Of a stretch of DNA of 31,170 nt, positions 9,219 through 30,217 are shown in pieces. The notes beneath the pieces are model-generated. The model was given only the letters and a program-made list of their open reading frames with translations, was not told the DNA's origin and searched no databases. The DNA lies in IMG/VR virus record IMGVR_UViG_3300032046_000140, positions 1 through 31,170 of that record, one strand, 5' to 3'. Made by a program: the position numbers and the translations under genes. The stretch's first letter is position 1, and each line of letters starts with the position of its first letter. The DNA comes from a virus.

Positions 9219-10707
9219 ATCTTTTTACATCTCCTCTTAAACCACTATTAGTCCGCAAGGCATTACTAATAATTCCTTCTATTGTTTTTTTATTCCTGAT
9301 AATATCCTGCACGTCCCACGCGTGTATGACTATAATAGGCTGGTTGATAATCTGTCCGCCTGCCATCCCTTGCCCTCTATTTAATCTATCAAAATTGCTT
9401 CTACCTAAACTCGCCATTCCCCTGCGGGATATAATGCCTTCACCTGCTTGTGCAATAACCGGCACTTCGTCAGTGGCAAGACCTGCGTGTGCCTTAATAA
9501 CTCCACCCTGATGAAATTTCAATCCCAAGATATTAAATGGTGACCATATCCTGCCTAAAGTTGTGCTGATTAACAATTGAGCAATCACCTGTCCTATAAT
9601 ATTCAATACTGCTTTTCCAAAATCAGCGAACATCTGTTTTGCATCATCAATCTGTCCAGCGAGAACATTGCCAAAAAAGTTGCCTAAAGAACTGGCCATC
9701 TGGGTAGCAACATTCTTCATTGTGTCATTCATCACATCCGCCATTGTCTTAATTTCAGTTTCTATCTTGATTTTCATATCCTTCCACTTTTGTATTAAAG
9801 CATCAAAATCCGGAAGAGGCATATTCTTCATATACTTATCTAAATCAGCAAACGCGGCTTTAATATCATCCAATTCGCCAAGAAGGCCTGTGGCTTTCTT
9901 GGTTTCAAAGACTTTTTGCATATTGGCTTGTAAAGTTTTAATTTCTGCTTCTATCGCCGTTATTTGTCCTCTAAACCAATGTGCCAAATCAAACTGGCCT
10001 AATAAATATGAATTCCATTTTAAAACATTGAGTATGGCAATAGTTAATTTATCATAGCCGATGCGTATCATATTAATGGCCTGTTGTGCTTTGCCTAACG
10101 CAGAAACAGTCCTATCACCGAACAATTCCATAGCACCAACTATTAAAGCCAATCCTGCGGCAATAGAGAATAAGATAGGATGCAAAGTCATAAATAAAGT
10201 AAATTTAGAAGGCAGAACTATCAGTATTCCTAATAATCTGACAAACCTGCCTATTACCATTAGCAAAGTTCCACCTATAATTAAAAATATGCCATTAAGT
10301 AAAATAGTCTTTACTATGGTTTCTCTGGTGGCCGGACTTATATTATTAAAGGCAATATATAATCTTCCTAATAATTCGGTAAAAGTCTTGACAGCAGGAA
10401 GCATACTTTCGGCAACAGTAGTCCTTAAACCTATAAAAACTGCATTTAGTTTCTCTGTCTGTCTGGCTACATCTACGGAATATTTTTCTGCACTCTTGAA
10501 AGCCAGTATCAAAGGCGCAGTCATTGCCGTGCCAGTCCATATCATAGTCTGGCCTAATATAGATATTTCCCGGCCTACTTGTTTCATTGTGCGGCCTAAT
10601 TCAATTCCGCGCTGTGCTGTCTTTTGCAGGTTGCTCTGGAATTTCTGCATATTGGCAGAGAATTCATCAAGCAATTTAAGGTGAATATTTATATTGGTTT
10701 CATTCAC
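9211..10707 (-). CDS. Tape measure protein
   Basis: A protein of about 498 residues. It has a long helical N-terminus with repeated Gln/Lys-rich heptads (about 1-60), a central membrane-like stretch with several hydrophobic helices (about 130-200), and further coiled coil (about 250-340). It ends in a Gly-rich tail with an Ala-Gly-Glu-Gly-Ile-Ile motif typical of tape measures. I chose GTG at 10707, because GAGG lies 6 bases upstream; TTG at 10719 is the alternative. It sets tail length and may help DNA cross the membrane. At about 0.15 nm per residue the tail would be near 75 nm, shorter than lambda. It overlaps the HNH gene end by 8 bases. Confidence 0.87.
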   Translation of the reverse strand: MNETNINIHLKLLDEFSANMQKFQSNLQKTAQRGIELGRTMKQVGREISILGQTMIWTGTAMTAPLILAFKSAEKYSVDVARQTEKLNAVFIGLRTTVAESMLPAVKTFTELLGRLYIAFNNISPATRETIVKTILLNGIFLIIGGTLLMVIGRFVRLLGILIVLPSKFTLFMTLHPILFSIAAGLALIVGAMELFGDRTVSALGKAQQAINMIRIGYDKLTIAILNVLKWNSYLLGQFDLAHWFRGQITAIEAEIKTLQANMQKVFETKKATGLLGELDDIKAAFADLDKYMKNMPLPDFDALIQKWKDMKIKIETEIKTMADVMNDTMKNVATQMASSLGNFFGNVLAGQIDDAKQMFADFGKAVLNIIGQVIAQLLISTTLGRIWSPFNILGLKFHQGGVIKAHAGLATDEVPVIAQAGEGIISRRGMASLGRSNFDRLNRGQGMAGGQIINQPIIVIHAWDVQDIIRNKKTIEGIISNALRTNSGLRGDVKRYG

Positions 10708-11239
10708 AAAACACCTCAATCTTTTCGGTAAAATAATTATTCCAATAATCCCTATGATAGATAGTTTTACAATGGCAAGAACGGCATAAGGATATTAGAT
10801 TTTTAATATCGCAATTCTTTTTATCGTAATCAATATGATGTATATGTAAATGTTCATAACATTCAAGTTCAGGAATTCCGCATAATTGACATTGGAAATT
10901 ATCCCTTACTCTAACCCTTTCTTTTGTTTGTTTATCAAAAGAGGGAGTATACGGCTCATAGGATTTACCACCACGCCAATTATGATGATTTTCTTTAACC
11001 AACCATAAATGTGGGTTATCTTTTTTTATCCAATGGTTTTCTTTCATTTTTCCTCTTGTTTCAAGAGAACGTTTGCCACCTTTCAATGTTAAACCTATTT
11101 TTAAACGAGTTTCAATGGATTGTTTTGTGTCTTTCCTATTATTGCGATAAAGAATTAAAGCCCTACGACTATTAGGATTATTATGACTTCTTTGTGGGCA
11201 TTTAATTCCTTTACCATAAGGATGATTTTGATTAACCAT
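10700..11239 (-). CDS. HNH homing endonuclease
   Basis: A 179-residue protein. The basic N-terminal half holds Ser-x-Glu-Thr-Arg repeats resembling NUMOD3-type DNA-binding motifs (about residues 41-70). The C-terminal HNH domain has C117-x2-C120, H134-H135-x-Asp, N147 and C152-x2-C155-H156. It is inserted between the frameshifted tail chaperone gene and the tape measure, overlapping both by 8 bases. GGAGAAG upstream of the ATG supports its start. Free-standing HNH genes are common intruders in tail modules. Nothing suggests a structural role. Confidence 0.87.
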   Translation of the reverse strand: MVNQNHPYGKGIKCPQRSHNNPNSRRALILYRNNRKDTKQSIETRLKIGLTLKGGKRSLETRGKMKENHWIKKDNPHLWLVKENHHNWRGGKSYEPYTPSFDKQTKERVRVRDNFQCQLCGIPELECYEHLHIHHIDYDKKNCDIKNLISLCRSCHCKTIYHRDYWNNYFTEKIEVFCE

Positions 11240-11875
11240 TTTTCTTCTCCAATTTGCCCATTATCTTATCCATAACAATCATTACCTGCGAAAACTTCAT
11301 CGGTTGATTAAGCCAACCGCCATCGTTTGGGAGAAAACCATTTTTATATTCAAGATAAGCCTGCATATAATCCTGCTCAATGCCGCTAACTTGTATCATC
11401 GGACAGCGCGTAACAACAATATCTTCAACGCGGTATGGTGGCACATCAGCATTGCAACCGTATAGTGTCTTGCGTTGTGCATAACAGGTTTGGCAGTTTA
11501 AACCGTTAGTTACAGCCCAAACTGCCAGTATCAGTTTTTTTCTTGCTTTACACCCAAAAAATTTATCTCAACTATTTTGTTCACCAGTTCCAACACCACA
11601 TTGAAAGGTATTGTTTCCAAAACCGTATCATCAATAGCGGCATAATCCTTGCCACTGAGATTTTTTATACCTTTCAAGCCTGCCTTGGCAATATCAAATA
11701 TCCTGCCTGACATTTTTGACATATCAATAGCGCCAGTTTTGTCAATGGCATCTGCAAATAAATTTAATTTATCGCGGTTGGTAATATTACCGAGTAGAAA
11801 TATTGTAGGACTTTCTGCGGTATCGGTTGTTGAGATAAACTCAATGGTTTCTTTTGCATCTATACCTTTTAGCAT
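11232..11875 (-). CDS. Tail assembly chaperone GT, -1 frameshift product
   Basis: Predicted 214-residue fusion made when ribosomes slip back one base at A-AAA-AAC (11534-11540) near the end of the 114-residue G frame. The new frame has no stop for 100 codons, until 11232. The first 30 of those have no start codon upstream of the only candidate (GTG at 11444), so the region makes sense only as an extension. The added part contains a Cys-x2-Cys and an acidic C-terminus. In lambda, gpG and gpGT, made in a fixed ratio, coat the tape measure and recruit tail protein. Position after the major tail protein fits exactly. Confidence 0.8.
11491..11527 (-). promoter_or_regulatory. Frameshift-stimulating stem-loop
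   Basis: A perfect 9-bp stem (TGGCAGTTT pairing with AAACTGCCA) with a 19-base loop starts 6 bases after the slippery heptamer. That spacing is right for a -1 frameshift stimulator. The large loop might also pair further downstream as a pseudoknot, which I cannot decide by eye. Confidence 0.75.
11531..11875 (-). CDS. Tail assembly chaperone G (unshifted product)
   Basis: A 114-residue, mainly helical protein directly after the major tail protein gene, with GAGGT before its ATG. Size, helical content and location match lambda gpG-type chaperones, which bind the tape measure during tail assembly and are absent from the virion. The last codons (GAA AAA AAC TGA) contain the slippery heptamer just before the stop, so most ribosomes end here and a fraction continue into the GT frame. 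Confidence 0.82.
   Translation of the reverse strand: MLKGIDAKETIEFISTTDTAESPTIFLLGNITNRDKLNLFADAIDKTGAIDMSKMSGRIFDIAKAGLKGIKNLSGKDYAAIDDTVLETIPFNVVLELVNKIVEINFLGVKQEKN
11534..11540 (-). promoter_or_regulatory. -1 ribosomal frameshift slippery site A AAA AAC
   Basis: On the minus strand the heptamer A-AAA-AAC is in the correct zero-frame register (X-XXY-YYZ) immediately before the TGA stop of the G frame. This is one of the most efficient bacterial -1 slip sites. Slipping leads into CTG and a 100-codon open frame. Confidence 0.85.
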
Positions 11876-18838: not shown

Positions 18839-19129
18839 TTAGTCATCTGGCGTCTTGACAATTTCCGTCTTATCATTAAAAACCACCTTATCTTTTTGAA
18901 TATCAGTTATAACTTTTCCATCAACCATCTGACCGATAGAATAAAACTTACTATAAATTAAATTACCACAGTCAACTTTTATATACGCAAGAGCCGACTT
19001 TTTATGGTCATAACCATTAGGAAATAATGTCAGGCGCAAAATCAAAAGACACAGCATAGCCGAAGTAATGGTAAAGTAGCCAATCCTTCGTTTAACCAAA
19101 CCGTTGGCACTATTGCTGGTCTTTTGCAT
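18839..19129 (-). CDS. Single-pass membrane protein, GspC/PilP-like tail domain
   Basis: A 96-residue protein with a basic N-terminus, one transmembrane helix (about residues 15-37) and a 55-residue exported-side domain. That domain carries a pattern like Ile-Gly-Gln-x-x-x-Gly-x-x-Ile-x-Asp-Ile-x-Lys-Asp-x-Val-Val-Phe. This spacing recalls the beta HR domain of GspC or PilP in secretion and pilus systems, but it is too short to be sure. Start ambiguous: TTG at 19138 has AAGGAG 4 bases upstream, ATG at 19129 is more standard. It ends the sugar-gene run just before the fibre genes. Confidence 0.5.
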   Translation of the reverse strand: MQKTSNSANGLVKRRIGYFTITSAMLCLLILRLTLFPNGYDHKKSALAYIKVDCGNLIYSKFYSIGQMVDGKVITDIQKDKVVFNDKTEIVKTPDD

Positions 19130-20222
19130 ATTCTTCAATTATCTCCTTTAACCGTAAAGCGCTTTTTTCCCAAGTAAACTTGGAGTGCATTCTATCACTG
19201 GCCTTCTTGGCCTTATTCAGCGCCTCTTGGTAATGATTTAAAACATAAATAACTTTCTCAACAAAATCTTTAGTATCAGGTATCTTTAATTCAACAACAA
19301 GATTATCATAATTAGTCAAGGTATCTTTGGTGGTATTATATTTAAGTGTGTAACCTACCTCATCATCAAAAAAATCCTTACAACCAGTATAATCAATCCC
19401 GATACAAGGGCAACCAGTAGCCATCGCCTCGCCCAAAGGTAAACCCCATCCCTCGCCTAAAGATGGAAAGACAAACAAATGTGCCGAATAATACAAATTC
19501 CTGACATCCTCATAAGGCAAACGCCTTGTATCAAATATAATATTCTTATATTTGCCATATTCCCTGTAAGTATTGAATAATTTAGGAGTAGGTATTTTAT
19601 TCAATATTCTTACCAAAGAGATTAATTTGCCTTTCTCATAGCAGATATTCTTCCAATGTTTGAAAAAATATTTAATGGCATATCCCCAAGTGGATTTAGA
19701 CATTGTAGTCTTAAGGTATATTTCTACTTTAGGAAACTGTTCAACTATCTTGATTAGTTCCTGCACAAATATATACCCCTTGCGCGGATTGGGCGCACCA
19801 AGCCAAAGTATCCTGAATTTCTCATTGCCCTGTGGAAGTTTTCTTTCTTTATAAGGATAAAGTTCCGGCTCAATACCTTCCCAGCAGACATATACCTTTT
19901 TATTGTAATTCTTCTTAAATACATCCCTGCAATATGAACTTGGGACTATCAGCATATCCGCATATTTCAATCTCTTGATATAGGATACTGGTAACTCATC
20001 AAACTCCCACATTGAAAATAGGATATTTATTTTGTCCTTCAACGGATAGAAATGGTCGGCTGGATTTATATGCAAAACCAGTTTAGCGTTCTCATCCAAG
20101 TCAAAATATTTCTCCGAATATTTCTTGAGCATTCTGCTATGTGTGGCATAACCCAAGATGTTACCATAGGGATTTTTGATATTGGTAAACCAGTGCAATT
20201 TTATCTTTCCGTTTTCGCTCAT
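19110..20222 (-). CDS. Glycosyltransferase family 4 (GT-B)
   Basis: A 370-residue GT-B enzyme. The N-terminal domain has Ile-Val-Pro-Ser near 92. The C-terminal Rossmann half has Leu-Gly-Ala-x-Asn-x-Arg-Lys-Gly (141-149) and the donor-binding E-x7-E motif (E257 and E265) within Gly-Glu-Gly-Trp-Gly-Leu-Pro. These are hallmarks of retaining GT4 enzymes using nucleotide-sugar donors. It begins with an ATGA overlap on the 45-residue zinc ribbon gene. In a phage late operon it could transfer sugar to a fibre, capsid or host envelope glycan. The sugar and acceptor cannot be read from sequence. Confidence 0.88.
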   Translation of the reverse strand: MSENGKIKLHWFTNIKNPYGNILGYATHSRMLKKYSEKYFDLDENAKLVLHINPADHFYPLKDKINILFSMWEFDELPVSYIKRLKYADMLIVPSSYCRDVFKKNYNKKVYVCWEGIEPELYPYKERKLPQGNEKFRILWLGAPNPRKGYIFVQELIKIVEQFPKVEIYLKTTMSKSTWGYAIKYFFKHWKNICYEKGKLISLVRILNKIPTPKLFNTYREYGKYKNIIFDTRRLPYEDVRNLYYSAHLFVFPSLGEGWGLPLGEAMATGCPCIGIDYTGCKDFFDDEVGYTLKYNTTKDTLTNYDNLVVELKIPDTKDFVEKVIYVLNHYQEALNKAKKASDRMHSKFTWEKSALRLKEIIEEYAKDQQ

Positions 20223-20356
20223 TTTGTCATTAAACCGCCTTTAACTAATTTCATTTCTACATAACATTTCTGGCATTTAGGTATCGGTTCTCTGGCGCTC
20301 ACTTTAACCTCGTCCCCACAAACAGGACATTTATAAATTGACTTTGTGGTCATCAT
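20219..20356 (-). CDS. Small zinc-ribbon protein (45 aa)
   Basis: A 45-residue reading frame that fills the gap between two sugar genes. Its first ATG overlaps the preceding TGA (ATGATGA), and its TGA overlaps the ATG of the glycosyltransferase. It has C10-x2-C13 and C28-x2-C31, a standard zinc ribbon with a 14-residue loop. The four-base couplings on both sides and intact cysteine pairs make it a credible gene. The function is unknown; it may bind nucleic acid or a partner protein. Confidence 0.65.
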   Translation of the reverse strand: MMTTKSIYKCPVCGDEVKVSAREPIPKCQKCYVEMKLVKGGLMTK

Positions 20357-21102
20357 AGACACCACCTTTTACATCCGCCAAAATGAAACATCATAATTTC
20401 TTCATTAGTAATGGTATTTATTAATGCACCGTTTTCTTCCATCTTAATGTTTGGCTTGGGAGAGTGCATTGCCCTCATCCCTGCATATAATCTGTCACCT
20501 TCTCTCCATTCCCTAAACTCAACCCTTAACTTACCATTTGTCCTTGCCGCAATTACTGCCCTTGTAAACTGTATTTCATCAAAGGCTGAATAATGAGTGC
20601 CTCTTAATATAGTTTCCCAGTCAGACACATTCTTAAATAAATTATTCACTTCTGGAATATTCCTCAACAGAGAAAATATTCCATTCATCTGTTCAGGGTC
20701 ATTGCCAAAGATGTCAAGGTCATTTAAAAATTCATCAGTAACAAAATGGCTCAACCGGCCATAAATAACATCATTATTGGTGTATCCCCAAAAATCGTAT
20801 CCTAGAATTAAGTCCTCAAATATAAGTCCAAAAGCTGGATGGAATTCACTTATCGCGCGACCGTCAATTCTTTGTTTGCCGATTAAATCTACTTCTATAT
20901 CTAGTTTATCTTTTATTCTACGTTCCAATTCTGTTCTGGTCATAGAAACAACTTTTACATTACCACCACCTTGTATCTCTTGGTCAGTAATAATAATCCA
21001 ATCCCAACCATCTTTGGCTTGCATATTACAGTTAGCGATATATTTATCCATCCAATCATATTGCCTATTGAATATATCCAATAAGAATATCTTTTTTAAC
21101 AT
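20353..21102 (-). CDS. DUF6625-like putative glycosyltransferase
   Basis: A 249-residue protein with a GT-A-like beginning (hydrophobic strand Ile-Phe-Leu-Leu-Asp, then Ile-Ile-Ile-Thr-Asp near 36-40) and a Trp-Gly-Tyr-Thr-Asn-Asn-Asp motif (105-111). That motif occupies the place of the metal-binding DxD in related sugar-transfer proteins of bacterial polysaccharide clusters. The canonical DxD is replaced by Asn-Asn-Asp here, which may reduce or alter catalysis. ATG at 21102 is preferred over the GTG two codons earlier, because GGAG lies 5 bases upstream. It overlaps the deacetylase gene by 7 bases. Family name is from memory of the pattern, not a search. Confidence 0.65.
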   Translation of the reverse strand: MLKKIFLLDIFNRQYDWMDKYIANCNMQAKDGWDWIIITDQEIQGGGNVKVVSMTRTELERRIKDKLDIEVDLIGKQRIDGRAISEFHPAFGLIFEDLILGYDFWGYTNNDVIYGRLSHFVTDEFLNDLDIFGNDPEQMNGIFSLLRNIPEVNNLFKNVSDWETILRGTHYSAFDEIQFTRAVIAARTNGKLRVEFREWREGDRLYAGMRAMHSPKPNIKMEENGALINTITNEEIMMFHFGGCKRWCL

Positions 21103-21626
21103 AGCCACTCCGATTTATTTTTGACAGCCGCAAAATGTGGCTCACTCATTTTTAATTGTGTCTTGTATTCTGCCAATGCCTTATTCTTCAATTCAATTTC
21201 CTCTTGGGTAGGGATTACCTCTTTTATGCCTCTTGCGAATAATTCTTCTTTTGTATATGTAGAATAATAAATTACATTAGCCCTGAATAATTCTTTCGCT
21301 ACTTTGTTGACTATATCGTGCGCCTGATGACCACCCTGCAAGGCCGGTGCATAAACTACCTCTGGATTAATATATTTCAATCTTTCATAAAGCAAGTTTT
21401 CTGTAAGGTCTACATCCCTGATACCCATAAACATTACCGACGCACCTAGTATGGCCATCGCCCTGATACTTTCCCTACGGCGTTCAAGCCAATCTGTTTT
21501 AACTCCATAAATAGTCTGATTAAAACCATCCGTAATTATTATCACTAAAGGTTTTTCTCTGATGATTGTATAGGCACAAAATAAGCATTCATCGTCATTG
21601 TGGGGTGCCAAAACTACTTTAAACAT
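21096..21626 (-). CDS. PIG-L (LmbE-like) deacetylase
   Basis: A 176-residue protein with the PIG-L zinc motif Pro-His-Asn-Asp-Asp-Glu (residues 8-13) and the second metal site H100-x2-H103-Asp. These enzymes remove acetyl groups from N-acetylated sugars such as GlcNAc derivatives using Zn2+. ATG at 21626 was chosen because AGGA lies 6 bases upstream and it places the first strand at the terminus. It overlaps the epimerase gene by 8 bases. Length is short but both metal motifs are intact. It suggests that an amino sugar is made or modified by this gene set. Confidence 0.87.
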   Translation of the reverse strand: MFKVVLAPHNDDECLFCAYTIIREKPLVIIITDGFNQTIYGVKTDWLERRRESIRAMAILGASVMFMGIRDVDLTENLLYERLKYINPEVVYAPALQGGHQAHDIVNKVAKELFRANVIYYSTYTKEELFARGIKEVIPTQEEIELKNKALAEYKTQLKMSEPHFAAVKNKSEWLC

Positions 21627-22386
21627 CAATTGTCCTTTTATAATAATCAAGCGTGCGTTTCATTCCTTCCTCAAATCCTATGCCTGTTACTACATTCCGC
21701 GCCTTAGTAATATACTGATCGCATTGGCGTTCGCCTACATATACAGGTGACTTGGTATAGCCCAGATAACCAGCCATAAATTTGAATAATTCATTGATAG
21801 ATACTAACTTGCCATATCCTACATCCACAAGGCCAGTCACCTCTGAAAAGGCCAGCCTAATCAGCATATCAACTGCATCCTCTATATAAACATAATCCCT
21901 TTTGGCCGTGCCATCCCCGACTATCTCAATATCTTCATTGTGCAACATTTTTTTGGCAAATTCATAAACTACATGACTTTTAAATCCTTCACCAAACAGA
22001 TTGAACAGTTTTACATTGATGCTGTTTGGAAAATAATCTGTTATAATTTCGCCTAATTTCTTGCTCAAACCATAAGGACTAACACAAGGATCACTAATGC
22101 AACTTGCCACATTGACTAATCTCGCGCCCTTATACATATCAAATATCCTGTAAGTTCCCCAGACATTGACATTAAAATAAATCTCTGGGTTTTTGATGCT
22201 TTCCGGCACGCTGGTCAAGGCCGCACAATGTATTACCATATCAATATCAAACTCTTTTGTATAAAAGAAAATATTTCTACCTAATTTTAAATCTAAACCG
22301 AAAATGAAATGTTCATTGGATTGTGTTAATTTTTTAACAATTGCCTTACCTACAAATCCTTCACTACCAGTAATTAATATCTTCAT
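21619..22386 (-). CDS. NAD(P)-dependent sugar epimerase/dehydratase (SDR)
   Basis: A 255-residue extended-type short-chain dehydrogenase. It has the Rossmann motif G7-x2-G10-x2-G13, Cys-Ala-Ala-Leu-Thr after strand 4, and catalytic S95 with Y105-x3-K109, then Arg-Asp-Tyr-Val-Tyr and Glu-Asp-Ala-Val near 165-175. This family epimerises or dehydrates nucleotide sugars (UDP-glucose 4-epimerase and GDP-mannose dehydratase relatives). It is shorter than a typical 310-340-residue member, so it may be a compact variant with a reduced substrate lobe. ATGA overlap with the methyltransferase-like gene before it. Confidence 0.88.
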   Translation of the reverse strand: MKILITGSEGFVGKAIVKKLTQSNEHFIFGLDLKLGRNIFFYTKEFDIDMVIHCAALTSVPESIKNPEIYFNVNVWGTYRIFDMYKGARLVNVASCISDPCVSPYGLSKKLGEIITDYFPNSINVKLFNLFGEGFKSHVVYEFAKKMLHNEDIEIVGDGTAKRDYVYIEDAVDMLIRLAFSEVTGLVDVGYGKLVSINELFKFMAGYLGYTKSPVYVGERQCDQYITKARNVVTGIGFEEGMKRTLDYYKRTIDV

Positions 22387-22847
22387 TGTATAAATATGGT
22401 AGCCTTCTGCCCCTGATTATTTGGTATTGTATATAATACGCTTTTATAATCAGCCATATCAAATATAGCCTTATAGCGTTCACGCTCACTATCATCAAGC
22501 ATAATAGGTTTACCTAATTTAATTGCCTCGCCAAAACATCTTACCCTTTCTCTGCCGTCAATAATAATGAAATCCGCACCTGCGGTATTGTGAATATGCT
22601 TAAAATATCTTTCGTCAGTCAGGGGATATAAATTAAAATCTATATTGAATAAATGCAATTCATTTGCTATCGCCTTAATCTTGTCATGCCATTCCTGCGT
22701 ATGTTCCATAGTAATGACTTGTCCTACTCTCTCCGCAAGCCAGATGGTAGAGTAGCCTGTTCCCCATTCAAAGATGGTATAATTTTTATTCAGGATTTTT
22801 TCTATTTCTGCTATCGTATTAGGCGACCAGTCGGGCTTGTATTCCAT
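22383..22847 (-). CDS. Small Rossmann methyltransferase-like protein
   Basis: A 154-residue protein with a SAM-binding type motif, Glu-Trp-Gly-Thr-Gly-Tyr-Ser-Thr (27-34), an acidic strand end Met-Glu-His (48-50), and Ile-Ile-Ile-Asp-Gly-Arg (94-99). This arrangement matches compact class I methyltransferase-fold proteins found in glycan clusters. GGGAG lies 8 bases upstream of the ATG. The first 29 bases overlap the previous gene. It may methylate a sugar, but the short length leaves room for a non-catalytic role. Confidence 0.72.
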   Translation of the reverse strand: MEYKPDWSPNTIAEIEKILNKNYTIFEWGTGYSTIWLAERVGQVITMEHTQEWHDKIKAIANELHLFNIDFNLYPLTDERYFKHIHNTAGADFIIIDGRERVRCFGEAIKLGKPIMLDDSERERYKAIFDMADYKSVLYTIPNNQGQKATIFIQ

Positions 22848-23676
22848 CTATAATCTCCCAAAAGATTTTGTTACGATTACGCAAAAATTCTAACATCCCT
22901 GCCTCACCAGAATTGAACCATTCCTCTGTGGTATGCTGAATTTTATCATTGGTGATTATCTCCCTGCCCATAAGTTTCATTTCGGTAACCATACGGCAGG
23001 ATACATCATAACCATTAGGTAAATAAACTATGCCCTTGCACTTAGCCATCTCTGCCAGAGATTGTTCATAAGGCAGGCCTGCTATTTCAACATATTCCAA
23101 CCCATTTTCCTCACAATAAACTATTGCTTCCTTATAACCCTTCACCCAAGCTCCTGCCTTTAAAATAAAATATTTATTAGTCTGCGGAATATCCTTAAAT
23201 GAAAGTATCAAATCAAGTTGTTTATCGGAGAACACTCCGCCCATAATCTCCGAAGGCATTGTTTTCAGTTCAGGGAATATCCTGCAATATTCATTCCTTT
23301 GCCTGATTGACTTCCAGAACAAATATTCTGCTCCAAGCATAAGTTTTATTACCGGTATTGAATAACCTTGCGGACAATCACACTTGCCTTTCATAAAGTT
23401 ATGCAAATGAATTGACCTATATACGCAGTATTTATAATCGCATTCCTCAATTACATATTGGCAATATTTGGCAAGTTCAGGCATTATCGTCTTGTCCATA
23501 TTATAAAAGTTGCCAATTACAAGAAAATCATCTTCCCTTAATTGGCTTAATTTCAATTCATTTGATTTTATTTTTTTGTAAGGATAGGGACAGGTATCAA
23601 TATGCACCTGAATTGACAACTCTGAACCACCTATATATTTATCTGCAAAATTATCAGCCACAAAGATTATTCTCAT
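22819..23676 (-). CDS. Putative GT-B glycosyltransferase
   Basis: A 285-residue protein with an N-terminal nucleotide-sugar-type motif, Gly-Gly-Ser-Glu-Leu-Ser (16-21), a Cys-rich central region (about 70-105), and a C-terminal half resembling the donor-binding part of GT-B enzymes. There Pro-Asn-Gly-Tyr-Asp is followed by Glu-Met-Lys-Leu-Met-Gly (about 227-243). The usual E-x7-E is not clear, so catalytic activity is uncertain. It has ATGA coupling to the upstream methyltransferase gene. Confidence 0.65.
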   Translation of the reverse strand: MRIIFVADNFADKYIGGSELSIQVHIDTCPYPYKKIKSNELKLSQLREDDFLVIGNFYNMDKTIMPELAKYCQYVIEECDYKYCVYRSIHLHNFMKGKCDCPQGYSIPVIKLMLGAEYLFWKSIRQRNEYCRIFPELKTMPSEIMGGVFSDKQLDLILSFKDIPQTNKYFILKAGAWVKGYKEAIVYCEENGLEYVEIAGLPYEQSLAEMAKCKGIVYLPNGYDVSCRMVTEMKLMGREIITNDKIQHTTEEWFNSGEAGMLEFLRNRNKIFWEIIDGIQARLVA

Positions 23677-24275
23677 TTAGCCTTATACTCCACAAATTGA
23701 TGGTGTTCACTGGCATCATTGGTATCTACTGTAGTAATAGGATTAAAATACCTGCCTATAATTTCCCATATATTAGCGCCAGCATCACTATCGCCTAATT
23801 CATAATCACTATAACCCCTGCTACTCACCAATAGACTACCGACAGGATAAAGCATTTCCGTTAAATTAATTAATATATTTTTTAGTTCTATAATTGGTAT
23901 ATGCTGGAATACGACATCGGCAATGACATAATCAATCATTCTTATATTTTTTATGTTATCAATGGGATACTCTATGAGTTTAAGAATAAGGCCATTTTTA
24001 TCTTTTAAATATTGCTTTGCAAAATTAATCATATTGGGATAATCATAACCTATAAGGCGTGCCGGTATCTGTGTTTCAAGAATGTATTTCAAATTCCTTC
24101 CCACGCCACACCCAAAATCTAAAACAACCTTGTCATTAAAATCAAACCTATCAATCATAAGTTTATTCGCTTCAAATCCGCCAGTGTTCTTATAATGAGG
24201 GTTAGAAATAAAATGCTTGGCTTCCTCAATATTCGCTATTTTAGACCAGTCCATATTATTCCTAACCCTCATCAT
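23673..24275 (-). CDS. Class I SAM-dependent methyltransferase
   Basis: A 200-residue protein with motif I Val-Leu-Asp-Phe-Gly-Cys-Gly-Val-Gly (50-58), an acidic motif II (Ile-Gly-Tyr-Asp-Tyr), and a hydrophobic strand with Asp-Val-Val-Phe-Gln-His-Ile-Pro (motif IV region). These show a standard small-molecule type methyltransferase. It is the first gene of the sugar block, 23 bases after the capsid gene stop, with AGGA upstream. Target probably a sugar or a lipid-linked glycan by association; a protein or DNA target is not supported. Confidence 0.83.
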   Translation of the reverse strand: MMRVRNNMDWSKIANIEEAKHFISNPHYKNTGGFEANKLMIDRFDFNDKVVLDFGCGVGRNLKYILETQIPARLIGYDYPNMINFAKQYLKDKNGLILKLIEYPIDNIKNIRMIDYVIADVVFQHIPIIELKNILINLTEMLYPVGSLLVSSRGYSDYELGDSDAGANIWEIIGRYFNPITTVDTNDASEHHQFVEYKAK

Positions 24276-24298: not shown

Positions 24299-25603
24299 TT
24301 AGGCAGTTATAATCTTGGTAAAGGCCGTTTCTCTACCCAGTGATAACGCCCACCTTGAAATCATACGGAAGCGAGTTTCATCTTGGTCAAACAAACCGTA
24401 TGGGTCAAGTTCAAGCGCCATAGCACCTATACGCCTACCGATGATATACTTCTGGAAATCGCCGAACAAACCAAAGATACATCCTGCGCCGGAGTCAGTC
24501 ACGGCAATTTTCTCGGACATCAACCAAGGATACCCCAATATCGTAGATGGCATTGTGTCAGAAAGCGGTTGCATAATCGGCCTGTTAGTGCTGTCAATCA
24601 TCCCGCGCACATAATGCTGTGCTAACCTATTGAGCATAAACCTTGCGTTAGCGAGGTCGCCTTCACTCAATTTATAAATCGCTTCGCTCAACTTTGTAAC
24701 GGTAATGGTTGACATTGAACCTGCGAGATAGACAATATTAGTCGTCAGGATGCCGGAGCAAAGTAGGCCTGAACAAGGAATACCAGTTCCATTCAATGCC
24801 TTATTGTCAATATCAAGCGCGATGCCGTAAGCAAACTGTTCAGTCAGGATAGACGCGATATCTATTCTGCTGTCTTGAAGTAATTCGTTAGAAGAAATTG
24901 CATAAGCGGTGGCCTTACTTGCTGTCAAGGTAACACGGTCAAAGGTAGGATCACCTTGTGCCATTGCAACTGCCTCACCTTTCCAATTAACCGTAGCAAG
25001 CGCGGCTTCGGTGGGTATATACATAACATCTGATGTCATACCCACTATTCTTGCTATCTGCAAAAAGAATGCTCTTGACCTTGCTAACTGCACAATATCC
25101 CACTGGTATTCAATAGGAACTAAATAACCACCTGTTGCTACTGCGCCTTCAGCCAAACTGGCCTTAACATTCATCTCGGCCAATGCTTCTCTGGCTTTAG
25201 GATCATTGATTTTGGGATGCACTGCACGCACCCAAGCAATGAGGAACTTGCAGAATTTATTTACTTCTTCCTCTTTATGGAATGCGTCAAATCCGGGTCT
25301 ATCAATAGACTTACTTTTGATAAACCTACCTTGATGATTTAAGTTGTAGCCCAAGAAATCGTCTGAACCTATCATCGCAGGCATACCCAATTTGTTGAGA
25401 GGTAACGCCTCAATCTTGGTGACGCGGTCACCGATTGCCTTGATATCGGTCGTGGCCTTCTCAACACTTTCCTTCAAGGCCTTTGTGCCTTCTTCAACAG
25501 CACCCTTGATAATTGTTACATCTGCCAATAATGATTTTTGGCAATGCGGACAAACTGTCGCATTTACCTCAATATCCTTTTGGCAAAAAGGACATTTTTT
25601 CAT
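24299..25603 (-). CDS. Major capsid protein (HK97 fold) with N-terminal zinc ribbon
   Basis: A 434-residue capsid protein. Residues 4-21 carry a C4-x2-C7 ... C18-x2-C21 zinc ribbon. A helical coiled-coil segment (about 28-67) follows in the place of the scaffolding delta domain. The HK97-fold core starts near residue 145, with Gly-Gly-Tyr-Leu-Val-Pro, a strand-rich P domain and A domain, and a C-terminal Arg-Met-Ile-Ser-Arg-Trp typical of HK97 family shells. The prohead protease gene lies immediately upstream, so the N-terminal part is likely removed during maturation. A zinc ribbon in this place is unusual. AAGGAG lies 12 bases before the ATG. Confidence 0.9.
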   Translation of the reverse strand: MKKCPFCQKDIEVNATVCPHCQKSLLADVTIIKGAVEEGTKALKESVEKATTDIKAIGDRVTKIEALPLNKLGMPAMIGSDDFLGYNLNHQGRFIKSKSIDRPGFDAFHKEEEVNKFCKFLIAWVRAVHPKINDPKAREALAEMNVKASLAEGAVATGGYLVPIEYQWDIVQLARSRAFFLQIARIVGMTSDVMYIPTEAALATVNWKGEAVAMAQGDPTFDRVTLTASKATAYAISSNELLQDSRIDIASILTEQFAYGIALDIDNKALNGTGIPCSGLLCSGILTTNIVYLAGSMSTITVTKLSEAIYKLSEGDLANARFMLNRLAQHYVRGMIDSTNRPIMQPLSDTMPSTILGYPWLMSEKIAVTDSGAGCIFGLFGDFQKYIIGRRIGAMALELDPYGLFDQDETRFRMISRWALSLGRETAFTKIITA

Positions 25604-25604
25604 A

Positions 25605-26513
25605 CTATTTATTCTCCTTTTGTAATGCCGTTGAAACCATTCCTGACAAATTATCCTTACTTAATAGTGCAATAGGTCTTTTGACCACACCTTCAAGGAC
25701 TTTTAGGAAAGTCTCATCAGCGATTAATTTCTCAATTATAAGTTTTGTATTAGAATCGATAACATCCAAAACCTTCTGCTTAAATTCCTCTGCCAATTTA
25801 ATATCTTCTGCACTTTTCTTTTCCCACAATGAATGACAAATTGCCGCCGCTTGCTCTGGCTTTTTACCTTCATCAATCAGCATAGGGATACATCTATTTA
25901 TAAAATGTTCTTCGGTTTCGTTATCCTGTGGTTTAGGTTTTTGTTCAATGGCAGGTTCTTTCAATTCTCCATTCTCAAAACTTTTTATTGCCACTTCCAA
26001 TAATTCCTTTTCTACCTCGTGAAGATTTAATATTATATCTCTACGCTGTTGGACTGCGTGCCTGTTACTTGGCACAAGCACCTGACTTATCTCAACCAAT
26101 TCCACATCCGTGAATTCCCGGTTGTAACCATCCTTGGCTAAATCTTTATCTTCATAGGCAAATGGAATAAATCCAATGCTGAACCCTGCAATATTCTTTT
26201 GTGCTAAAACCCAAGCCCAATCTGCCTCTGGATTGCCTTCATTAGCATAATATTTAAATTTTGCCTCAAGGCCTTGGTCAGTAACCTTAATATTCTGCGC
26301 TTCGCCTATCTGCTTGCGCAGATCATCATATCTGTGGCTACTTAATAATACTGGATGATCTTTATAATATTTCAGCCGCTTTTTGAAAGCGTCTGCATTT
26401 ATTTTTTCTTTATCCCTGTCCACATCAGCAGTGCTGACCACCACATCCATTGTAAAGTCTTGCTCATTAATTGACTTTACTATACCCTTATAAACTTTAA
26501 AAACTTTATCCAT
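25605..26513 (-). CDS. Prohead protease with scaffold-like C-terminus
   Basis: A 302-residue protein. The N-terminal half is an HK97-type prohead protease (U35-like) with catalytic H60 in Ser-Ser-His-Arg-Tyr-Asp and nucleophile S112 in Gly-Phe-Ser-Ile-Gly-Phe. The C-terminal half is long, acidic/basic and helical, with Glu-Glu-His-Phe-Ile-Asn-Arg-Cys and a Gln-Ala-Ala-Ala-Ile-Cys motif (about 205-240) often found in phage proteases. It probably acts as scaffold before self-cleavage. AAGGAG is placed well before the ATG. It precedes the capsid gene with one base between. Confidence 0.88.
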   Translation of the reverse strand: MDKVFKVYKGIVKSINEQDFTMDVVVSTADVDRDKEKINADAFKKRLKYYKDHPVLLSSHRYDDLRKQIGEAQNIKVTDQGLEAKFKYYANEGNPEADWAWVLAQKNIAGFSIGFIPFAYEDKDLAKDGYNREFTDVELVEISQVLVPSNRHAVQQRRDIILNLHEVEKELLEVAIKSFENGELKEPAIEQKPKPQDNETEEHFINRCIPMLIDEGKKPEQAAAICHSLWEKKSAEDIKLAEEFKQKVLDVIDSNTKLIIEKLIADETFLKVLEGVVKRPIALLSKDNLSGMVSTALQKENK

Positions 26514-26786: not shown

Positions 26787-28802
26787 TCATTCCAATATTG
26801 GTATAACTGTGCATCGGCAATTTATAACCTCACCTGCCTCACCAGACATATCTCCGGGATACATTAGGCCATTAGCAAAACGCTGTGACATTAGCACCGT
26901 TTGCCCTTCAAGCGCTTGATGGCTTTGTCGCACAAATTCATCACCGGCCGTCAGCCACTGCTTTTTTGGTATGCCATTTTCCTCATAATAAATAAAACTT
27001 CCACCATTCACCGCCCCTGCGGTTTCTGTGCGTGCAATCATCAAGGCACGGCCTGCCGCCATATTATAAATATCACGCACCCTATCGGCCAATTGCATTA
27101 TAGTTTCACCTGCCTGAACACCTTCCGTCAGTGCTTCTTTCATCTGGTTTTTGACCGTTTGGTTTATGCGTGTAATTTTCTGCGCGCTCATTGCAAGATA
27201 ATTGCTTAACCTTGCATTCAATTCCTCATCAGCCATAGATTTTTGGCCTATGAATTGTTTGCCGAATTCAATTCCTGCCTTCAATGCCGCCAATATATAT
27301 GGCATTGTCTTTTCTTTTAGTTGAGTATCCTCATCAGACCAGTTCATTCCGGCATCGCTCAAGTGATTGTTGATACTGGTGAGCGCCTTTTTGCGTTGTT
27401 CATAAAAGTAATTCTTTACAACAGAGGCCAATCTATTTTCTAAAGGATTTTGATGTGCTAAAAATTGCTTCCAGATATTCAAACGCTCAAATTGTTTTTG
27501 GGTTAATTGCTTCCCCGGTTGTGTTTCAGGTGATAAATTGATTGCCGATGATAAGCCACCTTCACCTGCTGGCATTTGGCTAAACGATATCCACCATTTG
27601 TCACCCCAAGGATAATCCTCAAAACCAAGACCAAGTTTTTCATTGACATCGTTCAATGGCACGCCGATTGCTATTAAAGTTTGCGCCGTAGTAACCTTTT
27701 CCTTAAAATCTTCCTGATAGGCCACTACTTCACTTAAATCAAACTTGGCTATCATATTTGGGTTATATGGCTGGACAATATATTTATTCAGGACATCCGT
27801 CATCTTGTGCAAAGATGGCATTATGGTATAATTCCAAAACATCTTCATCTGTCCAATAAAGGTGGCATAGTTCAGGCCTTCAGTGACATTAAAGAATGCC
27901 TGCGGCACGCGCCAGATGCCAAGTATCTCTTGTCGCGCAAATTCCTTCTGTTTGACAAAATCCATATCCCTATGCGTAGGCACGACTGTTACTGGCTTTA
28001 GACCGCCTTCCAACACTGCTAAACGGAATGCCTTGCTTACTCCCTTATGGCGCTTTTCAAGCCATTCGGTAAGCCGGTCTATTTGTTCTGTATTTAATGT
28101 TTCATCTGTGGATAACATCATTCCCGGAGTGGCATCATTATCAAAAAACTTCTTGTTGAATATCAATGATTGCCAATCTATATCAATCACAGTCTGTATT
28201 GGTTTGGTAGGCGCAACGCCGCGCAATAAATGGTAGGGGTTAAAATCACGCGTGTGTATTACTTCGTCAGGACTAAATATAGTTTTATTAAAACCAGAGG
28301 CAAGATTATACCGCCAGCCTACTAATTGTCCTTTATCCAAAATTTCCTGAAAGTTGGCAGGATTGAATATCCAAAGCTCGGCAGGCAATTTTCTTGCGCC
28401 GGTTAATTGACCGATACTAATATTCTTGATTATATTTGCTTCGCCATAAAGCGCTAAAAAGCCAATCCACGCCTGCACGAATTCGCTTTCTGTCATTAAG
28501 GGGTTTGGATTATTGAATAAATCAATGATTGGGTCAGAAGTAATTTCTCTTTTGCCGGACTTATCATAAAATTTTAAATCTGCCTGCGGCACATTATCGG
28601 TGATTGCCTTGATTGCTTTATAGACATTACTTATCTGCTCATAAGGTCTGGTTACGGTTTCACCAAATAATTGCTGTTCGTGTCCGGTGAGCCACAACTT
28701 CTCCCATCCACTGACTGTTTTTTGGACAATGCTCTTTAGGGTTTCAATTTCTTTTGCCCGAGCAAGTCCTAATCTGTTTAAAATATTATCTAATATATTC
28801 AT
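26787..28802 (-). CDS. Portal protein fused to SPP1 gp7-like head morphogenesis domain
   Basis: A 671-residue protein. The first 420 residues are an HK97-type portal: Thr-Arg-Pro-Tyr-Glu-Gln near 50, Leu-Phe-Asn-Asn-Pro-Asn-Pro near 92, the Pro-Asp-Glu-Val-Ile-His region and Arg-Val-Pro near 328. The last 87 residues hold the gp7/Mu F signature: Ala-Arg-Thr-Glu-Thr, a Trp then a Gly-x-Glu, and Asn-Cys-Arg-Cys near the end. These are normally separate genes. The start is the ATG at 28802, which overlaps the terminase stop (TAATG) and has GGGGG upstream; the 21-residue upstream extension is not needed. Confidence 0.88.
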   Translation of the reverse strand: MNILDNILNRLGLARAKEIETLKSIVQKTVSGWEKLWLTGHEQQLFGETVTRPYEQISNVYKAIKAITDNVPQADLKFYDKSGKREITSDPIIDLFNNPNPLMTESEFVQAWIGFLALYGEANIIKNISIGQLTGARKLPAELWIFNPANFQEILDKGQLVGWRYNLASGFNKTIFSPDEVIHTRDFNPYHLLRGVAPTKPIQTVIDIDWQSLIFNKKFFDNDATPGMMLSTDETLNTEQIDRLTEWLEKRHKGVSKAFRLAVLEGGLKPVTVVPTHRDMDFVKQKEFARQEILGIWRVPQAFFNVTEGLNYATFIGQMKMFWNYTIMPSLHKMTDVLNKYIVQPYNPNMIAKFDLSEVVAYQEDFKEKVTTAQTLIAIGVPLNDVNEKLGLGFEDYPWGDKWWISFSQMPAGEGGLSSAINLSPETQPGKQLTQKQFERLNIWKQFLAHQNPLENRLASVVKNYFYEQRKKALTSINNHLSDAGMNWSDEDTQLKEKTMPYILAALKAGIEFGKQFIGQKSMADEELNARLSNYLAMSAQKITRINQTVKNQMKEALTEGVQAGETIMQLADRVRDIYNMAAGRALMIARTETAGAVNGGSFIYYEENGIPKKQWLTAGDEFVRQSHQALEGQTVLMSQRFANGLMYPGDMSGEAGEVINCRCTVIPILE

Positions 28803-30217
28803 TATCCCCCTATCTCGTAAATCATTTGTCTTTTGCCTTTTAAATATGCTTTTATGGCCAGACAAAAACTAAAGAAACAATCGCCGTGTCCTTCATCTGT
28901 TTCAACTGCCTGCAAATCATTATCCACATTTAGCATCTGCCGTTTTTGCCGTTCCTCTGGCAATAGGCGCACTTTGCCTTGCGTAACTATTTGGTCAACG
29001 CCACTGGCCATTTCAAATTTTTCTTTGCTGGTAAAGGTTACACCTTTCATTTGCGCTGGCAAGTTGCCTATTTCCCTGAAGCCTTCAAACTCCGCGCGCG
29101 TATCATCATAAAATAAAGTTATTATACCGAATGCCTGTATAGCCTGTCTGCAATAAGCAATCTGCTCTTTATAATCCCAACCATCCATCCACTTGCTGTG
29201 TAATTGTATTAATTTACCTGTGCTGTTTAGACCTAAAACAAAAAAATGGCTTGGATGAGATTTCTTGCCAATATCCAAGCCTGCATATGCACCTTGTTTT
29301 AATTTAGGCGGCCTATGCAATAAGTAATTTTTAATCCGGTTGCAGACAATTCCATCATATTGTTCTTCCTTGAAAAATCCTTCCTCTGCGCGCACCGGAG
29401 AACAAAGCATTTCTTTACGATATGCCTTGTCACCAATGGTATCGTGTATCTCAATAAGCCTATCCTTGCTAAAGTTTTCCGGCCATAAAGGTGTGCCTTT
29501 TTTTTCAGCAGGATAACTGCGGTAAAAATATTTCTTCTTGGTGGCTACTTTGGCAAACAAATCAAGGCGATCTTGTCTTGTGCCTGTCAGATGGAGTTCT
29601 TCGGTAGGCATTAATTCAACTTCTTCAAAAAAGATGCGTTCTATTTTTTGCAGTTGGCTGATATCAAGACGCTTCTCCGGGTCTTTTAAAATATCATCAA
29701 GTATCATTTTGTGCGGATGCCTGCCGCGTTTAAATGTAAGTATACCGCTTGGTATGCAAATAAATTCCTTGCCGTCTTTGCCATAATGAAGAATACTCTC
29801 GGCTTCGGTAAGGTCTTTATAATCCCCAAAAACTTCCGGCAAGGCATTAATGTAACGCTTCAATCTTTTTAAAGCGCCAATGGACAAATCTTCCACATAG
29901 CCCATATATTCCATTTCCATATATGGCCGGTCTAATGTATAAAGTTGCCAAGCAACATATCCTAAATGCACTGTGGATTTTAAAAATAGGCGAGCGCTTT
30001 CTAAAACTGTATGAGAATAGGCCTGAAGAATTGAACACCATTCAATAAGATGTTTTCCGGGAAGGAATATACCTTCAATGCGGTAAACCCCAACACTGAA
30101 TATCTCAAAAAAGAACTGCCTGAAACTATTCTGTGGGGTTTCCGTTATTGATTGATTGGCGCAGGTAATCTCGCATTGTTCCGGAGAACTTTGCGTCGTC
30201 TCCAACAAGTTTTCCAT
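28802..30217 (-). CDS. terL: Terminase large subunit
   Basis: A 471-residue packaging motor ATPase-nuclease. The Walker A-like segment (about 74-82) reads Ser-Ala-Arg-Leu-Phe-Leu-Lys-Ser-Thr, lacking the usual glycines. Walker B follows as Met-Ile-Leu-Asp-Asp (172-175), and a coupling motif is seen as Leu-Thr-Gly-Thr-Arg (210-214). The C-terminal RNase H-like nuclease shows D315 (Gly-Leu-Asp-Ile-Gly), D371/D372 and D446 (Gly-His-Gly-Asp). ATG at 30217 is preferred over the GTG at 30223. Its first 92 bases overlap the small gene upstream. It is the first large gene of the packaging module. Confidence 0.9.
   Translation of the reverse strand: MENLLETTQSSPEQCEITCANQSITETPQNSFRQFFFEIFSVGVYRIEGIFLPGKHLIEWCSILQAYSHTVLESARLFLKSTVHLGYVAWQLYTLDRPYMEMEYMGYVEDLSIGALKRLKRYINALPEVFGDYKDLTEAESILHYGKDGKEFICIPSGILTFKRGRHPHKMILDDILKDPEKRLDISQLQKIERIFFEEVELMPTEELHLTGTRQDRLDLFAKVATKKKYFYRSYPAEKKGTPLWPENFSKDRLIEIHDTIGDKAYRKEMLCSPVRAEEGFFKEEQYDGIVCNRIKNYLLHRPPKLKQGAYAGLDIGKKSHPSHFFVLGLNSTGKLIQLHSKWMDGWDYKEQIAYCRQAIQAFGIITLFYDDTRAEFEGFREIGNLPAQMKGVTFTSKEKFEMASGVDQIVTQGKVRLLPEERQKRQMLNVDNDLQAVETDEGHGDCFFSFCLAIKAYLKGKRQMIYEIGG

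Follow-up and report, generated by a model that had tools for sequence, protein, structure and literature searches.

The scaffold of the HK97 capsid protein gp5 (the delta, or mcpN, domain) consists, according to the available portion of PMC10275583, of three parts, namely an N-terminal coiled coil (residues 2-66), a flexible spacer and a shell-binding part. In the available portions of PMC10275583 and PMC12749128, N-terminal coiled coils of this kind are described as forming towers towards the procapsid centre, proposed to be 3-, 5- or 6-stranded, and the HK97 towers around the portal are described as binding the portal. The capsid protein of Pseudomonas phage D3 likewise has coiled-coil towers, a linker and a P-domain-associated region, and is cleaved by a protease (PMC12749128, same portion). 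The staphylococcal phi12 capsid protein (CP) and its satellite homologue Ccm are also HK97-type proteins with a removable delta domain, and a relative whose delta domain differs alters which capsid is made (PMC8569155, available portion).

Here we describe a capsid protein encoded in a 31,170-nucleotide stretch of viral DNA (IMG/VR record IMGVR_UViG_3300032046_000140), which was analysed as a whole and is referred to as the window. This protein resembles HK97 gp5 in its HK97 fold, its N-terminally fused scaffold and the protease gene upstream, but differs in a putative zinc ribbon at the N-terminus and in a longer shell-binding part (residues 80-147). The available portion of PMC10275583 mentions no zinc ribbon for gp5, nor does that of PMC8569155 for phi12 CP or Ccm, and the word zinc is absent from the main text of PMC12749128. 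A search of titles and abstract openings in the open-licence literature found no description of an HK97-type capsid protein that bears a zinc ribbon, and none appears in the available portions of PMC12934983, PMC7824862, PMC12487901 and PMC10535572. An HK97-type capsid protein with a fused scaffold is well known; a scaffold domain with a putative zinc cap appears to be new.

Organization of the capsid gene and its product

The capsid gene (24299..25603) is a single open frame of 434 aa on the minus strand. The preliminary description had located it correctly without stating the strand, and the plus strand contains many stops over the same interval. In the reading direction, a portal protein fused to a Mu-F-like head morphogenesis domain (26787..28865, minus strand; PF04860 E 2.2e-58, PF04233 E 9.4e-16) is followed by a small protein, the 302-aa S78 prohead protease (25605..26513, minus strand; PF04586 E 1e-9) and, directly after it, the capsid protein. 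The window portal is 41-44% identical to those of the other five genomes whose protease tails are compared below. A cassette encoding a glycosyltransferase, a DUF6625 protein, a PIG-L deacetylase, an NAD epimerase and a methyltransferase lies between the capsid and tail genes (19110-24275). In addition, an HNH endonuclease-like gene with Pfam scores slightly below cut-off (10700-11239) adjoins the gene for a protein which, from its sequence character and with no profile match, we take to be the tape measure.

The N-terminus of the capsid protein reads MKKCPFCQKDIEVNATVCPHCQKS, with cysteines at positions 4, 7, 18 and 21 in the arrangement CPFC-x10-CPHC. This putative zinc ribbon (residues 1-24; 25532..25603, minus strand, as are all parts listed here) leads directly into a predicted 38-residue coiled-coil helix (residues 28-65; 25409..25522), a flexible, disordered linker (residues 66-79; 25367..25408; pLDDT below 50 at 67-79) and a second, helical scaffold part (residues 80-147; 25163..25366; helices 93-99, 111-128 and 135-143), which ends at a putative cleavage site, K147/A148, with a kept lysine. 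The remainder, residues 148-434 (24302..25162), is the HK97-fold core and the predicted mature shell subunit, with a computed mass of 31.2 kDa, compared with 47.6 kDa for the uncleaved protein. Residues 80-147 are located where D3 and HK97 have the P-domain-associated region and may be homologous to it.

Pfam Phage_capsid (PF05065), whose cut-off is 24.2 bits, covers residues 158-430 with a score of 152.6 (E 1.9e-44), and a Foldseek search with the AlphaFold2 model retrieved solved HK97-fold capsids (best E 1.7e-17, target TM 0.67). In the model, four short strands (residues 2-3, 10-11, 17 and 24; pLDDT about 70) accompany the two CPxC knuckles, as expected of a zinc ribbon, and helix 28-65 and the HK97 core follow; knuckles and strands are alike in the model of L170, from a distant lineage. 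The succession of N-terminal coiled coil (28-65), linker (67-79), helices to residue 143 and core corresponds to a scaffold (delta) domain. Within helix 28-65, the hydrophobic fraction at heptad positions a and d is 0.75, a value reached by 0.2% of 2000 shuffles, and the heptad periodicity was also present in each of the seven relatives tested. Sequence, Pfam and AlphaFold2 together confirm the four cysteines, helical segment and HK97-fold core of the preliminary description, and support its placement of the ribbon in an N-terminal delta domain.

Several Pfam zinc-ribbon models match residues 1-25 (E 0.006-0.5), all under their curated cut-offs. DZR, Zn_ribbon_3 and UPF0547 share the two CPxC knuckles with the window protein, but its scores stay below the family cut-offs, and residues 1-25 reached no Pfam ribbon family cut-off (best DZR, 17.2 bits against 27.3). 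To our knowledge, the known members of these three families are not capsid proteins. Both the sequence and the model suggest that residues 1-24 form a ribbon, which may bind zinc.

Recurrence of the ribbon and the start of the capsid gene

The N-terminal tight motif CP[FY]C-x10-CPHC was searched for in 2.9 million viral contigs. Seven loci were found among the matches listed, six of which are HK97-type capsid genes of two distant lineages, comprising L072 (the twin of the window), L147 and L215 on one side (lineage A) and L033, L108 and L170 on the other (lineage B); the remaining one encodes a 97-aa protein. The window virus also occurs in contig IMGVR_UViG_3300035660_000112 (L002), which is 99.99% identical over 11,302 bases and is therefore not independent evidence. 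Starts of the form MKKCPxC..CPxC occurred at 76 loci, where two frames, those of the window twin and L033, matched a capsid profile built from 15 proteins in this analysis. Fifty-five of the 76 frames belong to one widespread 171-aa viral protein family starting MKKCPECGIQ (for example L024:10971). The pattern MxxCPxC-x10-CPxC without a following G, whose scan is a lower bound (at least 119 stretches, 117 frames translated), gave at least 117 frames. At least four of these match the capsid profile (L147, L033, L108 and L170), and the same four are among the five frames of at least 400 aa in the matches listed.

The proteins of L147 and L215 are 67% and 64% identical overall to the window protein, share its four cysteines and were also recovered by a scan independent of the ribbon. 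In lineage B, every member was found through ribbon patterns, and L108 is nearly identical to L170; the L033 and L170 proteins have 49% identity with one another and 21-23% identity with the window protein, and their best PHROG is phrog_617 rather than phrog_10. The L170 model, of modest overall confidence (61), has the same N-terminal strands followed by a helix at residues 29-80. PHROGs recognise the protease of L033 and not that of L170, and Pfam recognises neither. Downstream of the capsid gene, both genomes encode a 153-162-aa protein with a Cys-rich stretch of its own (L033:246-734, L170:10037-10495), which in L033 gives weak HypA and zinc-ribbon matches below cut-off. Beyond these two lineages, a long protease-capsid fusion frame (L245:2755-5403) has a possible internal start, M83, at which a CPFC..CPEC ribbon lies; the capsid part of this frame belongs to a different family (PF25209, E 1.6e-43). 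An incomplete 84-aa open frame in L241 is a probable further ribbon capsid protein.

The ribbons of lineages A and B share 3-6 of 17 unconstrained positions, compared with means of 1.5-2.4 against 58 other phage ribbons. The two may be of common descent, but one unrelated ribbon shares 7 of the 17 with the window ribbon.

No prophage of this anatomy was detected in 84,980 species genomes scanned with the first family alignment, nor did the strict ribbon pattern, which would itself miss L147 and L215, give any match there. Among cultured phages, 50 records were matched by the window N-terminus (E up to 10) and 18 by that of L170 (E up to 1); a capsid annotation occurred in none of these records, some of which have no annotation. 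Of two ribbon matches inspected, MT837450 is a frame, presumably MscL-like, with a C-terminal ribbon. No N-terminal ribbon was found in the capsid matches of the cultured phages S-LBS1, Sc-Yong805-2 and phiKO2, and solved structures gave only weak coiled-coil and ribbon matches to a ribbon-coil profile (best E 0.021). In this analysis, the zinc-capped scaffold domain was found only in uncultured viruses.

A ribosome-binding site, AAAGGAG (25614..25620, minus strand), lies 10 nt 5' of the ribbon ATG within the end of the protease gene, and such sites also precede the ribbon ATG of L147, L033, L108 and L170. Over the ribbon codons, pN/pS was 0.26 (window-L147), 0.48 (window-L215), 0.28 (L147-L215) and 0.31 (L170-L033), with pS of 0.71-0.92 in these four within-lineage pairs, so that synonymous sites are near saturation. 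Between the window and L147, the ribbon is 57% identical and the coil 29%. Given that the ribbon and its ribosome-binding site recur in other viruses and that its amino acids stay constrained although synonymous change is near saturation, these comparisons identify the ribbon ATG as the correct start codon. Translation could instead begin at M74 or M77, both present in frame, in which case the ribbon would never be made. The ribosome-binding sites before the ribbon ATG, the conservation of ribbon and coil as protein and the starts of the aligned lineage-A relatives, none of which lies at 74, led us to reject this as highly improbable. The preliminary description had held that homologues lacking the cysteines, or starting near residue 74, would suggest a misassigned start. 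Cys-less homologues do exist (L003, L004, L217 and L221), but all of them begin at the coiled coil and not near residue 74, which argues that the start is not misassigned.

At the other end of the scaffold, the first 11 rows of a 22-row alignment, which are the window and its nearest relatives, all have the lysine of K147; lineage B has an arginine one column further on, and other distant rows vary. For phi12 CP and Ccm, cuts after K or R are reported (available portion of PMC8569155). Given the S78 protease gene upstream and the lysine kept at the expected cleavage point, the ribbon is likely lost on maturation, the scaffold and ribbon probably being removed together after K147.

Ribbonless relatives and probable exchange of the N-terminal end

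The ribbon-independent scan yielded 15 loci with 13 distinct sequences (L217-219 share one capsid gene). A ribbon is present in three of them (the window twin, L147 and L215), and none was seen in the other ten (L003, L004, L217, L221, L222, L223, L224, L225, L226 and L227, the last partial). Among the seven distinct proteins at least 59% identical to that of the window, itself counted, three have the ribbon and four do not. The ribbonless proteins begin at the coiled coil, for example with V/M-E-L-K-E-V-K-D-A. Since four of the seven nearest capsid proteins start in this way, and the core of L003 is 90% shared, the ribbon is, on these alignments, a conserved but optional cap, which goes beyond the preliminary description in that close relatives have ribbonless capsid proteins.

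Compared with ribbonless L003, the window protein is 33% identical in the coil (residues 26-62), 81% over residues 63-145 and 90% in the core (146-434). Given these values, the N-terminal end of the capsid protein looks to have been replaced as a unit. A core tree, which leaves out L226 (distant), L108 (nearly identical to L170) and L227 (partial), groups the window and L003 as one pair and L215 and L221 as another, both of them combining one ribbon protein and one ribbonless protein. The best core tree implies four ribbon changes and the bootstraps three to four, of which only one is forced by well-supported branches of this weakly supported tree. The ribbon label was no more clustered on the tree than when shuffled (301 of 500 shuffles as low).

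This scatter, and the absence of the ribbon from four of the seven nearest proteins, would be expected if it were a functionless passenger, acquired with a swapped 5' end and discarded on maturation. We consider this unlikely, because in two lineages the ribbon shows amino-acid constraint against a background of nearly saturated synonymous sites and the tight motif sits mainly on capsid genes (six of seven loci among the matches listed).

The contig of L003 and L022 (IMGVR_UViG_3300035659_002352, 14874 bases) has a 127-base exact terminal repeat, indicating a circle of about 14.75 kb. When 37 window proteins were searched against it, only four had matches, namely the capsid protein, the tape measure (in L003, too, presumably so from sequence character), TerL and the protein at 11531-11875; portal and protease were not found. 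Two tyrosine recombinases, a resolvase, a primase zinc domain and a D5-like helicase are also encoded. By its gene content, the element is possibly a satellite with its own capsid, tape measure and terminase. A speculative and rather doubtful extension is that ribbon and coil form an exchangeable recognition tag deciding which capsid proteins co-assemble when related phages and capsid-borrowing satellites occupy one cell. Gain or loss of the ribbon would then be a move in that contest, and L003 would be such a satellite.

Possible role of the ribbon in capsid assembly

The S78 proteases vary in their C-terminal tails. Those of L004 (4158-4991) and L147 (2976-3821) carry a zinc ribbon different from that of the capsid protein, CxxCGxGFT..EFxCxCGxxC; those of the window, L217 and L221 carry the motif RCIPxL..AxAxC; L215 has neither. 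The window therefore combines a capsid ribbon with a Cys-pair (RCIP..AIC) protease tail, L147 has both ribbons, L215 the capsid ribbon with neither tail, L004 the protease ribbon only, and L217 and L221 the Cys-pair tail only. The idea that the ribbon moved as a whole from the protease onto the capsid protein was rejected, since L147 has both and L215 the capsid one only.

These combinations bear on the suggestion of the preliminary description that the ribbon may dock the protease, by which the maturation protease, or some other protein of the core, might be taken into the prohead. The protease gene lies directly upstream of the capsid gene in all six lineage-A genomes that have both, and the protease tails of L004 and L147 have a zinc ribbon, either in place of the capsid one or in addition to it. 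However, the capsid ribbon and the type of protease tail are not associated across the six genomes, so docking is not favoured and seems improbable to us. Many zinc ribbons bind nucleic acid, and the ribbon might also bind DNA or RNA within the procapsid, perhaps to draw nucleic acid in or keep it out. Net charge is +1.5 to +2.5 in four of five ribbons, as such a function might suggest, but that of L170 is -1.4 and no basic patch is kept across six aligned ribbons. With a charge varying from -1.4 to +2.5, nucleic-acid binding, also raised in the preliminary description, finds no support and appears quite unlikely. A third role named there is a possible nucleation of assembly.

We propose that the HK97-type scaffold coiled coil is optionally capped at its free N-terminal end by the ribbon, which would bind zinc and act at the inner tower tips, and we put the probability of this reading at roughly one half. 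By analogy with HK97 and D3, the coiled coils of one capsomer would bundle into towers pointing into the procapsid, and groups of three to six ribbons would come together at the inner tips. In that position they may bind zinc and fasten the end of the bundle, or touch the portal or adjacent towers, and could in this way make the co-assembly of subunits more specific. The protease would then cut after K147, and ribbon and scaffold would leave before DNA packaging. Ribbon and coil would be swapped between related phages as a unit, leaving some lineages without the ribbon. The ribbonless proteins of L004, L217 and L221 count against the cap being necessary, as such capsid proteins exist without it. 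Being conserved yet absent from close relatives, the ribbon probably tunes how the shell assembles.

HK97-type scaffold domains guide capsid geometry and portal uptake, but little is resolved of their flexible free ends. Capsid proteins with and without a putative metal-binding cap, whose cores are up to 90% identical, occur here as a natural set and offer a ready comparison for the role of the tower tips. If the cap does bind zinc, it would provide a metal handle for trapping or labelling them.
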